From: Ignavibacteria bacterium
Lineage (GTDB): Bacteria; Bacteroidota; Ignavibacteria; UBA10030; SZUA-254
NCBI GenBank assembly: GCA_003235555.1
Contig: QJVY01000255.1
Location: 1-37,888 of the forward strand
Length of the DNA stretch: 37,888 nucleotides
Direction of reading: 5' to 3'
The notes beneath the pieces were generated by a model. It was not told the DNA's origin. It made no database searches and worked only from the letters and a program-made list of their open reading frames with translations. The translations under genes and the position numbers were made by a program. Positions 26,079 through 30,909 of the stretch are shown here, in pieces; within the stretch, counting starts at the first letter, position 1, and every line of letters begins with the position of its first letter.

Positions 26079-27788
26079 TCAGGCTTTTTTCCGCATCCCT
26101 TTTTCTTCGTAGCTGAATATCCATCCCGCGACCTTGCCCGGGTCGATGTCCAGGAAGTGGTTCCAGTACGCCGGGTTGTTCATATGATGTGAACTCGTGT
26201 CCCCCGGGATGACCTGTCCCGCCTGCTTCTGTATCCCGCTGAATCGTTCCTTCCACAACTGCATGTTGGGTTTCCTGAGGTCCACCCAGCCGTCGTGCGC
26301 CCAGAGGTTGATCTTCGCGGGGTTGACCGCGACCTCGGTCTCGCCGTGCATCGCGGGGATCTTGATCACCGGTCCGCGCAGCAGCCTGCGCCCGTCCGGC
26401 ATGAGGATCGGGATGCCGATCGAAATGATGTGGGAGCGGATGACCGCCTCGGCGGTGATCTTGTCGGTGATCCGTTTCGACATCGTCGCCGGGTCGGTGC
26501 GGAGCACCCGGAGCATGTCCTTGAAGCAGAGCCTGAGCAGATACGCCTCGTAGAGGAGTTTGGAGAGCCTCGGCGGTCCCAGCATTTCGAAGGCCACGCT
26601 GTCCACGTTGTGGAGCCTCTCCAGGTCCTCGATCTGGTCCATCGCCGACTGGAAGAGGAACCCCGCGCGGTAGGTGGGGGAGAGTGTGGCGTTGTCGAGG
26701 GCGTTGATGATGTCGTGCCCGGTGTTCCCGCCCATGATTTCGTAGACGACCGTTTCGGCGATCTCCTCCGGCGTGATGAACTCCATCTGTCCCGGGGTGG
26801 CGATCGTCTGGAATTCCCCCCGGGAGAAGAGCCCGTTCTCCCCGGTGTCGATGAACACCGAACGGAGGGTCCTGTTGAGGGAGCGGGCCGGTTTCTCGAC
26901 GTGCAGTTTCAGTTTCTTCGTGAGCCGGGCGGCCTGGGTCGGGGGACAGTCGACCAGCTGGATCGGTTTGCCCTGTTTGCGGATCTCTCCGAACCCCACC
27001 CGTTTCCACGCTATGGCGGCCGCGGGTTTGACCTCCTTCGTGATGGGCGCGTCGGGGGTTCTCCCCATGAGGAAGAGCAGCATGGTGTGGGCCCCTGCCA
27101 CTGCGGACTTGCCGAGCAGCACGCTCGACGGGCGTTCCTCGCTGTGGGTGTAGGGGATGTTGAGCCCCATTCCGCCCGTTCCGCTCGTCCCGATTTTGAG
27201 ATAAATCTTCGTCCCGCACTGGTGCATCACCCTGTAGAGCAGCTGGACGTGCCTGATCAGCTGGGGGGTGTACAGCGTGCAGAGGAGCCGCTCGGTGTAT
27301 TCCCGGAGGGTGTTCCCGGTGTCTTTTTTCCGGCCGCGTCCGAGCGCCCGGTAGACCCTCCGGGCGTTCCCGAAAATATCCTGGTAGGCGATAGCCGTCG
27401 CAGAGTTGATGCAGTCGATGATGATGTCGGGTTTGTAGCCGTTCAGCAGCCTGTGGATGGTCGACCGCCGGATGACGGGTTCGGCGAGTTCGTCGAGCGT
27501 GTCCTCAATGAACATCCTCCTCCTGGCGGGGTCTTCCATGATCTCGTCGCGGCGGGCGTCCTTGAGGACGTGCCGGACGAAAATGTTGCCCCCCCAGGCG
27601 ACGAAGAGCTTTTTCGAGGCGCGCGGAAACTCCCCGCGGAGGGTGGCGATCGTCTCCTCCGCCTCCCGTTTGACGAGGGAGGTGACGATGATCCTCTTCG
27701 GCCCCTCCCCGACGAGCCTGCGACAGACGGCCAGGCCCACGAGACCCCCTCCCCCGAGAACAAGGACGGTGCGGTTTTTAATGTCCAT
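26079..27788 (-). CDS. Large Rossmann-fold (SDR-like) protein of unknown function
   Basis: 569 residues. The N-terminus is a dinucleotide-binding fold: VLVLGGGGLVGLAVCRRLV with a Gly-rich loop at 12-18, and IIIDCINSATAIAYQD near residue 125 in the position of the SDR NNAG-like strand. A segment KIGTSGTGGMGLNIPYTHSEE (about 200-220) contains Ser, Thr and Tyr residues that could form an SDR-type active site. The remaining about 340 residues, with TPGQMEFITPEEIAE and PDGRRLLRGPVIKIP, match no family that I recognise. No signal peptide or membrane helix. A GGAG site precedes the ATG. It is the last gene of a four-gene minus-strand operon with an aldehyde dehydrogenase, so an oxidoreductase role is an inference only. 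Confidence 0.75.
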   Translation of the reverse strand: MDIKNRTVLVLGGGGLVGLAVCRRLVGEGPKRIIVTSLVKREAEETIATLRGEFPRASKKLFVAWGGNIFVRHVLKDARRDEIMEDPARRRMFIEDTLDELAEPVIRRSTIHRLLNGYKPDIIIDCINSATAIAYQDIFGNARRVYRALGRGRKKDTGNTLREYTERLLCTLYTPQLIRHVQLLYRVMHQCGTKIYLKIGTSGTGGMGLNIPYTHSEERPSSVLLGKSAVAGAHTMLLFLMGRTPDAPITKEVKPAAAIAWKRVGFGEIRKQGKPIQLVDCPPTQAARLTKKLKLHVEKPARSLNRTLRSVFIDTGENGLFSRGEFQTIATPGQMEFITPEEIAETVVYEIMGGNTGHDIINALDNATLSPTYRAGFLFQSAMDQIEDLERLHNVDSVAFEMLGPPRLSKLLYEAYLLRLCFKDMLRVLRTDPATMSKRITDKITAEAVIRSHIISIGIPILMPDGRRLLRGPVIKIPAMHGETEVAVNPAKINLWAHDGWVDLRKPNMQLWKERFSGIQKQAGQVIPGDTSSHHMNNPAYWNHFLDIDPGKVAGWIFSYEEKGMRKKA

Positions 27789-27854
27789 GAGATTTCTCCA
27801 ATGCTGTCCGGCGCCTGTCCGGGTGCGGCCCCGGGCGGAGCCCGGGACGTCCCG

Positions 27855-28850
27855 TTATTTCAGTTTGAGGGACTTGACCATGCCCTCGAGGACGGGGAAA
27901 TACTCCTCCTTCTTCGGGGCGAACCAGTTCAGCGTCGTCCGCACCACCTTGTCGTTCTTGACCGTAAAATACGCACGGCTCGAGACCTTCGACATGGGGG
28001 AGTAATCGACCCAGAAGGTCTTCTGGCCGTCGATGGTCGTCTCGCCCGTGCCGCGGGACCGGTACCGGCCCTTGTTCTGTTCCCAGACCTTGTCGACGGT
28101 GAGCCCCACCGCCCCGAAGACGTCGATGTGCAGCGTCACGTCCTGGCGGTCCGCCTTCAGTTCCACGACGTAGTCCTTATCGCCTTTTTTGACGTCCACG
28201 AACTCCATGTTCTCGGGGTAGGGGAGGGTGAAGTATTTCGTATCGAGCGAGGAGACATTCGGCGACGCCTGCCAGACGTCGGGGAGTTTTTCGACGACCA
28301 CCGGGACCTTGAAGGAGGCCAGCATCGCGTCGAAGACTGCGCTGTGCGCCTGGTACTGGTCACCGTATCCCTCCACGGTAATTTTATAGGTGGCGGTGTC
28401 GCCGGGGACGTAGATTTCGTATCCGTAGATCTTTGTTTTCGACGTCGCCTGTATCGAGTAGGGGATCTTCGTTGACGCCCTGCCATCGATCGTGACCTCG
28501 GTCTGGGGACTGACATCGGCCTGCATCTGGCCCAGAACGTCTTTGCCGGCGGTGATGGCGTCGTCCATCGTCATCTCGCCGCGCGGGAAGACCTCCACGA
28601 GGACCCTTCCGCCCTCTATCCCCTTCGACGGGTCGATGAATTTGTTGGCCATTTCCTGCGATTCGGTGAAGAGGGCCTTTCCGATGGTGCCGAGCTGCAG
28701 CCATTTTTCGGGGTACTGCATCGAAAATCCGTAGGCCGGGTCCTTGTATTCATTCGGGGTTCCCATGGTGACCGGGACGATCTCGGTTTTACCGCAGCCC
28801 CAGAGGAACAACAGGCCGGTGAAGAGGAAGGTCAGTGAAAGCGATTTCAT
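27855..28850 (-). CDS. Lipoprotein with two PsbP/MOG1-like domains
   Basis: 331 residues. MKSLSLTFLFTGLLFLWGC forms a lipoprotein signal with lipidated Cys19; Gly at +2 would favour outer-membrane delivery by Lol. Two similar domains follow: the first opens EYKDPAYGFSMQYPEKW (about 35-51), the second has KYFTLPYPENMEFVDVKKGD (about 207-226). The phrase of an aromatic/Gly turn followed by YPExW is typical of PsbP-like proteins, which in bacteria are mostly uncharacterised. A GGAGAA site lies 9 bases before the ATG. It starts 28 bases after the aldehyde dehydrogenase stop and belongs to the same operon. Confidence 0.75.
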   Translation of the reverse strand: MKSLSLTFLFTGLLFLWGCGKTEIVPVTMGTPNEYKDPAYGFSMQYPEKWLQLGTIGKALFTESQEMANKFIDPSKGIEGGRVLVEVFPRGEMTMDDAITAGKDVLGQMQADVSPQTEVTIDGRASTKIPYSIQATSKTKIYGYEIYVPGDTATYKITVEGYGDQYQAHSAVFDAMLASFKVPVVVEKLPDVWQASPNVSSLDTKYFTLPYPENMEFVDVKKGDKDYVVELKADRQDVTLHIDVFGAVGLTVDKVWEQNKGRYRSRGTGETTIDGQKTFWVDYSPMSKVSSRAYFTVKNDKVVRTTLNWFAPKKEEYFPVLEGMVKSLKLK

Positions 28851-28878: not shown

Positions 28879-30396
28879 TCAGGATGACTTCGGCACGACC
28901 ACGTCGTACCAGAACTTCTTTTCGCGCGCGCCCACCTCGTCGATGTGCATGTGCTTGGTTTCCATATATTCGTGCAGGCCCTCGAGGCCCAGTTCCCGGC
29001 CGATCCCGCTCTGTTTATACCCTCCGAAGGGGGCCTTCTCCGACATCAGGTGCCACTCGTTGATCCAGACCGTGCCGGCACGCAGGCGCTTTCCGATCCC
29101 GACGGCCTTTTCAGTGTCGGCCGACCAGACGCCCGCCCCGAGGCCGTAGTCGGAGTCGTTGGCGATGGCCACGGCTTCCTCGACATCCCCGTAGCGCAGG
29201 ACGGAGAGGACCGGCCCGAAGATTTCCTCCCGGGCGATCTTCATGTCGTTCCGGACGCCTGTGAAGAGCGTCGGTTCGACATAAAAGCCATTCTTCGCCG
29301 CCGGCACGTCGGGCGTGCCCCCTCCGGTGACGACCTTCGCCCCCTGCTCGATCCCGCTTTTGATGTACTGCAGAATTTTGTCGCGCTGCGCGGCGGAGAC
29401 CACGGGGCCGATTTCGGTGGAGGGATCCCGCGGGTCGCCTATTTTCATTTTTGCGATCTTCGAGACCATTTCGGAGACGAAACGGTCATGGATCGAATCG
29501 GGGAGGAGGAGCCGGGTCCCGGCCTCGCAGCACTGCCCCTGGTGGTAGTAGACGGCGTAGAGCGCGCCGTCGACGGCCATGGGAATATCGGCGTCCTCCA
29601 GGACGATGTTGGCCGATTTCCCCCCGCACTCGAGCGTGCATTTTTTCAATGTCGCCGCGGCGGACGACATGATGGAGCGGCCGACGGCCGTTGAGCCCGT
29701 GAAAGCGACCATGTCCACGCGGGGATCGGACACCAGCGCGGCGCCCGCGTCCTCGCCGAAACCGGGGATGATGTTGACGGCCCCGGGGGGGAAACCGACC
29801 TCCCGGAACATCGCCGCGAGTTCCATGGCCGTGACCGGCGTGAGTTCGGAGGGTTTCAGGACCACCGTGTTTCCGGCGGCGAGGGCCGGTCCGAGTTTCC
29901 AAACCGCCATTTTCAAGGGAAAATTCCACGGGGTGATCGCCGCGACGACACCGACCGGTTCGCGCACCAGCACGTTCCGGCTGAACCCCGGCTTGGAGAG
30001 GCCGTCCACCGGGGAGCTGAACTCACCGGCGGCGAGTTTCGAAAAATAGTACATCGCACGCGCGCTGAGCTTCACGTCCTCCTTCACCTTGCGGAGGGTG
30101 GAGCCGGAGTCGGCGATTTCGAGCTGTTCGAGTTCGGAGGACCGGTCGTTGATCCTGCCGGAGACGGCCTTCAGGAGTTCTGCGCGCTCGGCGCCGCTCA
30201 TCCGCGGCCAGGGGCCGCTGTCGAAGGCGCGTCTGGCCGCGGCGACCGCGTCCCCGGCGTCGCGGGAGCCCGCCCGCGCGCATCGCGCGATCACCGCGCC
30301 CGTGGATGGATCGATCGAATCGAAGGTCCTTCCGTCGGCCGCGGGACGGAACCTGCCGTCGATGAAGAGTTCAAGGGTGCGGACCTGTTCCGCCAT
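28879..30396 (-). CDS. NAD(P)-dependent aldehyde dehydrogenase
   Basis: 505 residues of the ALDH superfamily, oxidising an aldehyde to its acid. Visible are TPWNFP (N158 stabilises the thiohemiacetal), KPSELTP, the cofactor loop FTGSTAVGR (232-240), the general base E256 in LECGGK, the catalytic Cys290 in GQCCEAGTR, EEIFGPVLSV and PFGGYKQSGIGRELG. It looks most like betaine-aldehyde/broad-specificity enzymes; the substrate is not predictable. The C-terminal HIDEVGAREKKFWYDVV tail is of a type seen in several thermophile and FCB homologues. The ATG (30396) shares a base with the TAA of the membrane-protein gene upstream (TAATG), so the two are translationally coupled. A much longer in-frame start at 30636 would lie inside that gene. 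Confidence 0.95.
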   Translation of the reverse strand: MAEQVRTLELFIDGRFRPAADGRTFDSIDPSTGAVIARCARAGSRDAGDAVAAARRAFDSGPWPRMSGAERAELLKAVSGRINDRSSELEQLEIADSGSTLRKVKEDVKLSARAMYYFSKLAAGEFSSPVDGLSKPGFSRNVLVREPVGVVAAITPWNFPLKMAVWKLGPALAAGNTVVLKPSELTPVTAMELAAMFREVGFPPGAVNIIPGFGEDAGAALVSDPRVDMVAFTGSTAVGRSIMSSAAATLKKCTLECGGKSANIVLEDADIPMAVDGALYAVYYHQGQCCEAGTRLLLPDSIHDRFVSEMVSKIAKMKIGDPRDPSTEIGPVVSAAQRDKILQYIKSGIEQGAKVVTGGGTPDVPAAKNGFYVEPTLFTGVRNDMKIAREEIFGPVLSVLRYGDVEEAVAIANDSDYGLGAGVWSADTEKAVGIGKRLRAGTVWINEWHLMSEKAPFGGYKQSGIGRELGLEGLHEYMETKHMHIDEVGAREKKFWYDVVVPKSS

Positions 30397-30872
30397 TACT
30401 GACCCCCCAGCCGGCCGTAGACCGACAAGTACAGGATGGCCAGCAGAAGGAGGGGAAGGATGATGTATCCCGCCATGACCCACGAATCGTACGAGGAAAG
30501 TTGTTTTTCGGCGTCCGGGCCCGCCCCGCCGGCGGCCATCGACGCCACGAGGGCCCCCCGTTTGCGGGCGACGATCCCCATCACGACGCCGCCGATGACG
30601 GCGACGGCGAATACCACCAGCTTCGCGCTCAGCCAACCGAGGGTGAGGATTCCCACCCCGAGCGCGTGCATATTACCGATCCCGGTGATGAGCATGATCA
30701 CCATGCCGACGGGGCTCAGCAGGCCGATCGGCCTGGAGGCCCGGAGGATCAGCGCCTTCGTCTTGAGGTCTTCGGCCTTTTTATACTGCCTGTTGAGGAG
30801 GATGCCGGCCACACTGGCGGACACGAGCAGTCCCAACCCGAGGAAATGCAGGATCAGTGTGATCTCGCGCAT
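30396..30872 (-). CDS. Four-helix integral membrane protein, DUF2269-like
   Basis: 158 residues with about four transmembrane helices: ITLILHFLGLGLLVSASVAG, PIGLLSPVGMVIMLITGIG, GWLSAKLVVFAVAVIGGVVMG and YIILPLLLLAILYLSVY. A histidine in the first helix (HFLGLG) and an RPIGLLSPVG loop recall predicted membrane proteins of the DUF2269/CopD-like kind, some of which are haem- or copper-associated; this is a weak resemblance. ATG 30872 is chosen (AAGGA 10 bases upstream); longer in-frame starts overlap the divergent promoter region. First gene of the aldehyde dehydrogenase operon, with a leader of about 80 bases. Confidence 0.7.
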   Translation of the reverse strand: MREITLILHFLGLGLLVSASVAGILLNRQYKKAEDLKTKALILRASRPIGLLSPVGMVIMLITGIGNMHALGVGILTLGWLSAKLVVFAVAVIGGVVMGIVARKRGALVASMAAGGAGPDAEKQLSSYDSWVMAGYIILPLLLLAILYLSVYGRLGGQ

Positions 30873-30909
30873 GGAGGTCTGTTCCTTTCTGACGTGATTG
30901 TGTGTTTTG

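Follow-up and report, generated by a model that had tools for sequence, protein, structure and literature searches.

Protein X, a 569-residue product encoded on the minus strand of the 37,888-nucleotide stretch of contig QJVY01000255.1 (Ignavibacteria bacterium) analysed here, termed the window, represents a conserved protein family that has a predicted SDR fold, has lost the catalytic tyrosine of extended SDRs and kept the lysine, and is linked to catabolic genes in several lineages. The assignments of fold and residues are strong, and the pathway can fairly be inferred from gene linkage in separate lineages. The reading preferred here, which we hold to have a little less than an even chance, is that X would be a tyrosine-less, NAD(P)-linked enzyme of extended-SDR descent, placed at the node of amino acids, 2-oxo acids and acyl-CoA, with cofactor use, catalytic roles and pathway all predicted. 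This enzyme-like family is strictly conserved, occurs in much of Ignavibacteria and in a third of a Marinimicrobia-type sample, and is without a family model in the libraries searched. With its C-terminal part of no recognised fold, it would extend the set of SDR lineages that lack the catalytic tyrosine. Because the operons suggest that abundant, uncultured fermenters use them in 2-oxo-acid catabolism, the function can be tested. The features of the locus, in window coordinates, are the following:

26079 to 27788, minus strand: open reading frame of X, 569 residues, ATG start, stop included, with full-length relatives.
27794 to 27799, minus strand: GGAGAA hexamer resembling a ribosome-binding site, 5' of the X ATG, read directly from the sequence.
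27735 to 27755, minus strand: GxxGxxG nucleotide-binding motif of the extended-SDR type, residues 12-18 of X, with G12, G15 and G18 each in 149/150 rows.
27108 to 27188, minus strand: conserved active-site segment, residues 201-227 (Thr201, His215, Glu217, Val223 at the place of the lost tyrosine, Lys227), from alignments; low pLDDT at 202-218.
26687 to 27788, minus strand: SDR-fold part, approximately residues 1-367/370, from the VIA-align comparison with 6nkk_A (model range 1-369).
26082 to 26687, minus strand: C-terminal part, residues 368-569, mostly helical, without significant PDB match (model pLDDT 82).
27855 to 28850, minus strand: gene of a PsbP_2-type predicted lipoprotein, directly upstream of X (PF18933, 35.6 bits, cut-off 27).
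28879 to 30396, minus strand: aldehyde dehydrogenase gene, 505 residues from the chosen ATG, the listed frame extending to a TTG at 30636 (PF00171, 566 bits).

X is a single uninterrupted frame from ATG to stop, and its full-length relatives, nearly all free of internal stops, show that it is coding. Relatives of the PsbP_2 gene also adjoin X in close relatives. The best NCBIfam match of the aldehyde dehydrogenase is BADH (540 bits, under its cut-off of 668.6). A small membrane-protein gene without Pfam match precedes it (30399-30878, minus strand), and look-alikes recognised by eye stand at similar positions in loci L181 and L183. Scans for sigma-70 promoters (1 promoter-like site vs 1.1 expected) and terminators (10 terminator-like sites vs 5.9 expected) were uninformative.

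The first-pass annotation described X as an orphan, a view overturned by one scan of GTDB contigs, in which 168 pattern matches yielded 139 confirmed relatives, 80 of them kept. Most of these carry titles of Ignavibacteria, Calditrichota, Marinimicrobia, KSB1 or Gemmatimonadota, and Chloroflexi, Bdellovibrionales, Thermoanaerobaculia and Deltaproteobacteria are represented by one record each. Relatives are approximately 40-67% identical to the window protein (42-67% across the 51 rows of alignment A1, falling to ~40% in the remotest loci retrieved). Matches at E ≤ 0.001 were found in 55 of 60 related genomes, some merely contig-end or broken pieces, and none in G024, G031, G032, G046 and G052. 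The sample of the window's own phylum, Bacteroidota, contained matches in 40 of 148 genomes, comprising 34 of full or nearly full length and 6 with an N-terminal SDR-like match only. In phylum samples built on a Gemmatimonadota, a Bdellovibrionales and a Chloroflexi genome, X was present in 13/81, 4/144 and 6/251 genomes, respectively, and it was found in 41/120 Marinimicrobia-type genomes, fragments among them. Most of the carriers found have one copy of X. Plasmids and phages yielded no relatives, and 59 pattern matches in viral contigs gave none that was confirmed. Two of the 161 loci considered, L026 (internal stop) and L066 (short), were removed before counting, and the remaining 159 sequences were reduced to 150 non-redundant at 97% identity, 101 of which were placed in the tree. 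Stop-interrupted or split copies in draft genomes (L026, G137:C150, G057:C140 and G012:C91) possibly reflect sequencing errors. Two genome titles are at odds with the X that they carry: the X of L021, titled Chlorobiaceae, clusters in the tree with the family of the window, and L038 is titled Caldisericaceae and displays a Calditrichota-type X and gene order.

The SDR-like, nucleotide-binding N-terminus noted at first reading is present, as revealed by GxxGxxG at residues 12-18 and by weak, sub-cut-off SDR/epimerase matches over residues ~1-60; in the one row in which each glycine of the motif is missing, the alignment has a gap. No full-length match to a named family was found for X in Pfam, NCBIfam, PHROGs, PADLOC or PDB sequences. 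The weak matches all score under curated cut-offs and are nearly all confined to the first 50-100 residues; they include Pfam Epimerase (16.3 vs a cut-off of 20.9 bits), adh_short (13.3 vs 26.6) and Polysacc_synt_2 (PF02719; 12.5 bits for the window X, short of the gathering score of 20.2), and all NCBIfam rows are likewise under cut-off. The best PDB sequence matches of the X profile are UDP-GlcNAc 4,6-dehydratase and CapD, over residues 1-70. Text searches of a limited literature corpus, in which sequence is not searchable, returned nothing naming the family, a result that does not establish it as new to the literature. X could belong to a described enzyme family simply not modelled in the libraries used, since libraries are incomplete and most literature lies beyond the corpus searched; the absence of a full-length match in all five collections, together with the silence of the text searches, argues against this explanation, which is considered unlikely.

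The AlphaFold model of X computed from A1 (pLDDT 84) gave 222 PDB matches at E ≤ 0.001 in Foldseek, with SDR proteins throughout the best 50 and PglF entries high in the ranking. In VIA-align the best match was 6nkk_A (Z 17.1, rmsd of 3.5 over 231 aligned residues), and the SDR fold spans residues ~1-370. The part that resembles nothing known, initially put at about 340 residues, thus shrinks to ~200, as the predicted SDR fold runs on to ~370. Two conserved stretches, 202-218 and 357-368, display pLDDT below 50, as would be expected for loops that become ordered upon ligand binding. Modelled alone, residues 368-569 reach a pLDDT of 82. Foldseek returned 35 rows for this C-terminal model at E ≤ 10 and none at 0.001, VIA-align against 76 chains gave a best Z of 2.4, and the matches of the C-terminal profile were unconvincing both among PDB sequences (best E 0.49) and in Pfam (single members at E 0.03-0.1). 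The missing PDB match does not prove that the C-terminal part adopts a new fold.

The segment at residues ~200-220 was originally described as Gly/Ser/Thr-rich, with Tyr and without a clear YxxxK, which is correct; Tyr213 lies within it, and its conservation, proposed as a check, proved the highest of any 25-residue stretch of X (mean of 92% at residues 200-224 vs 59% overall, in 150 non-redundant relatives). Thr201, Gly203, Met207, Glu217, Pro220 and Lys227 are invariant in all 150 rows, as are His180, Lys198, Glu317, Asn318, Glu325, Lys410 and Glu414 elsewhere in the protein, and His215 is present in 149. Position 213 is Tyr in 132 rows and Phe in 18, so the Tyr213 hydroxyl is dispensable. 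The YxxxK dyad is absent: Lys227 is found in 150/150 rows and Tyr at positions 221-226 in 0/150. Position 223 is Val in 98 rows, Met in 23, Thr in 14, Pro in 5 and Leu in 4. Compared by profile with 16 extended SDRs of related genomes, X aligned over residues 1-200 with a probability of 97, and Thr201 fell on the Thr of the STDK motif. A forced local alignment with dTDP-glucose-dehydratase-like proteins, of low confidence past residue 200, matched Glu217 with the invariant Glu of those proteins, Val223 with their catalytic Tyr and Lys227 with their catalytic Lys. The alignment of the Rossmann part is sure, and the register of these three residues is a hint. Global hhalign alignments gave an implausible register and were set aside. 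Judged from sequence, X appears to have kept the lysine of YxxxK and lost the tyrosine. A new enzyme family, as first suggested, is a fair reading. The oxidoreductase activity suggested with it is putative, the loss of the tyrosine leaving room for non-redox SDR chemistry.

In the mechanism proposed, X would retain the SDR active-site Lys227 and the Ser/Thr position (Thr201) with the tyrosine lost. The invariant loop Thr201-Glu217, which includes His215, probably closes over the substrate and supplies acid/base groups, and the helical C-terminal part of ~200 residues, with invariant residues of its own, would complete the enzyme.

The commonest single context of X, observed in 44/150 loci, is a housekeeping cluster (rluB, scpB, cmk or moxR) with the typical order trpS-scpA-scpB-rluB-X-cmk-rpsA, found in Calditrichota, Marinimicrobia-type genomes and Gemmatimonadota. 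In the other loci X lies beside a divergent ptsN (19/150), after Buk-Ptb (11), between an HNH gene and nuoM (9), after an aldehyde dehydrogenase (9), after the PsbP_2 gene only (8), beside iorA (5), after E1 (3) or convergent with a P5C dehydrogenase (2). The 40 loci without any of these markers are an upper bound, as labels vary with flank length and some flanks are short. X adjoins 2-oxoacid-oxidising modules in 19/150 loci, in separate parts of the tree, arranged as X-iorA-iorB-acyl-CoA ligase, Vor-Buk-Ptb-X or hydratase-E1-X. The iorA, Ptb/Buk and E1 labels jointly need 6 changes on a quick 101-row tree, and thus the catabolic contexts do not go back to a single inherited arrangement. In the profile searches that named the neighbours, at least one curated cut-off was exceeded by VorB, IorB, butyrate kinase, PaaA, PaaD, P5C dehydrogenase and NuoM; IorA, acyl-CoA ligase, E1, enoyl-CoA hydratase and Ptb are best matches that remain under the NCBIfam cut-off.

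In the Bdellovibrionota-type sample X is directly upstream of iorA in 4/4 carriers, with 7-98 bases between matched ends, and iorB and an NDP-forming acyl-CoA ligase follow downstream. IorA was present in 4/4 X carriers vs 6/140 other genomes (Fisher p 1.2e-5) at a 440-bit line that was chosen after the scores were seen and splits 10 genomes with stand-alone IorA from 23 with weaker matches, mostly long fused frames; counting all 33 gives 4/4 vs 29/140, and none of the 144 genomes has an IorA row over the curated cut-off. A dependence of X on IorA fails outside this sample, the association being negative in Bacteroidota (2/34 carriers vs 26/114 others). Eleven non-redundant loci of the Marinimicrobia type have butyrate kinase and phosphate butyryltransferase directly upstream of X, with 5-105 bases between the end of the Ptb gene and X in each; in 4 of 5 listed loci, Vor subunits come before Buk. 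The Vor-Buk-Ptb-X operon is seen in L205, L207, L212 and L214; in L207 and L212 a small ferritin-like frame, read by eye and without profile match, lies between Vor and Buk. Butyrate kinase occurs in 32/41 X-bearing vs 40/79 other Marinimicrobia-type genomes (p 0.006, uncorrected for relatedness), an enrichment that is moderate only, and 9 X-bearing genomes are without it. Enoyl-CoA hydratase and a PDH/BKD-type E1 are upstream of X in 3 non-redundant loci. E1 lies ~30-40 bases before X in L151, L152 and L197 and ~1.3 kb before it in L153. The phenylacetyl-CoA epoxidase gene PaaA is convergent to the E1-X pair in L151, L152 and L197, and PaaD is shown in L152. The partner enzymes differ in expected substrate, and a single substrate of X is thus not implied. 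Counting against the catabolic reading are the frequency of the housekeeping cluster, the 40 loci free of any marker, the negative IorA association in Bacteroidota, the modest butyrate kinase enrichment and the sub-cut-off scores of several neighbour labels.

At the node of amino acids, 2-oxo acids and acyl-CoA, X would most likely carry out an NAD(P)-linked step that either yields a branched-chain or aryl 2-oxo acid or interconverts its amino or hydroxy partner. The neighbouring ferredoxin- or NAD-linked enzyme would then oxidise the 2-oxo acid to acyl-CoA, and the ligase or the Ptb-Buk pair would convert acyl-CoA to the acid and ATP. The exact step is a guess of low probability. A bolder and unlikely version holds that X is a new class of NAD(P)-dependent enzyme, predicted to combine the tyrosine-less SDR core (His215/Glu217, Lys227) with a new C-terminal domain and to deaminate branched-chain or aryl amino acids oxidatively; if true, X-iorAB-ligase and Vor-Buk-Ptb-X would be complete amino-acid-to-ATP operons. 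To our knowledge, no SDR deaminates alpha-amino acids. The portion consulted of a Black Sea study places aminotransferases and iorAB in most of its bins and presents aminotransferases as the usual source of 2-oxo acids (PMC8359207); a deaminating dehydrogenase therefore need not be missing.

Persistent pairing with the aldehyde dehydrogenase, raised in the first-pass annotation, found no support. The gene is directly upstream on the same strand in the nine loci mentioned, all from the window's own order by kinship codes. In loci L021-L100 the window aldehyde dehydrogenase matched, apart from itself, a single convergent gene of 27% identity (L079), and wider flanks of close relatives revealed 8 further X loci with the gene upstream. 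These loci would suit an acyl-CoA (thioester) reductase yielding an aldehyde that the neighbouring enzyme oxidises or the pair balances, as would the acyl-CoA-handling neighbours of X in several lineages and the AMP-dependent acyl-CoA synthetase-like gene two genes downstream in L082. This activity has a small chance of being correct: X lacks the YxxxK that fatty acyl-CoA reductases keep, no acyl-CoA reductase family is among its Pfam rows at E ≤ 1 (not an exclusion, as HMMER filters weak matches), and no aldehyde dehydrogenase marker accompanies X where iorA, Ptb or E1 is its neighbour.

The 44 housekeeping loci, with X between rluB and cmk-rpsA, suggest that X could act in translation or chromosome maintenance by sensing NAD(P) or through a link to RNA, with no catalysis of its own. 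Such a role is quite unlikely, as the strict 201-227 loop, with invariant Lys and Glu and a near-invariant His, looks catalytic, X moves to catabolic operons elsewhere, and it is missing from many genomes of the carrier phyla. It is very unlikely that X, like PglF and WbpM, dehydrates (or epimerises) a nucleotide sugar or some other activated compound without a catalytic tyrosine, bound NAD(P) serving as its internal redox cofactor: the UDP-GlcNAc 4,6-dehydratase and CapD matches over residues 1-70, the Foldseek rank of PglF and the alignment of Thr201 with the Thr that, with Asp, lets these enzymes function without Tyr in the part of the source consulted (PMC8987622) agree with such a role, but the Asp-Lys following that Thr is replaced in X by Ser/Thr/Ala/Cys202 and invariant Gly203, and no sugar-pathway genes are prominent among the listed neighbours, save two in L053.

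Compared with known systems, X shares with extended SDRs of the GalE/RmlB kind the GxxGxxG motif, the Rossmann SDR core, a Ser/Thr after strand 5, a Glu in the next loop and a Lys in the next helix. In contrast, X presents Val, Met, Thr and other residues in place of the catalytic Tyr, extends ~200 residues further at the C-terminus, and scores under all Pfam and NCBIfam cut-offs. Some fatty acyl-CoA reductases, themselves extended SDRs, resemble X in overall size and in joining an SDR core to a C-terminal helical part, but retain the YxxxK that X has lost; their domains are unlisted by Pfam at E ≤ 1 for X or its C-terminal part, in a filtered list that is not an exclusion. The UDP-GlcNAc 4,6-dehydratases PglF and WbpM (TDK...Mx3K) are precedents, in the part of the source consulted, for SDR enzymes that dispense with Tyr and use Thr and Asp (PMC8987622). 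X differs from them in having no Asp-Lys after the Thr, a longer loop before the Lys, a C-terminal part and other gene company. At the position of the Met in Mx3K, residue 223 of X is Met in 23/150 and Val in 98/150 rows, a placement past residue 200 that comes from the forced alignment. What X and these dehydratases have in common is an active site without Tyr, a Lys that is kept and a Thr after strand 5.
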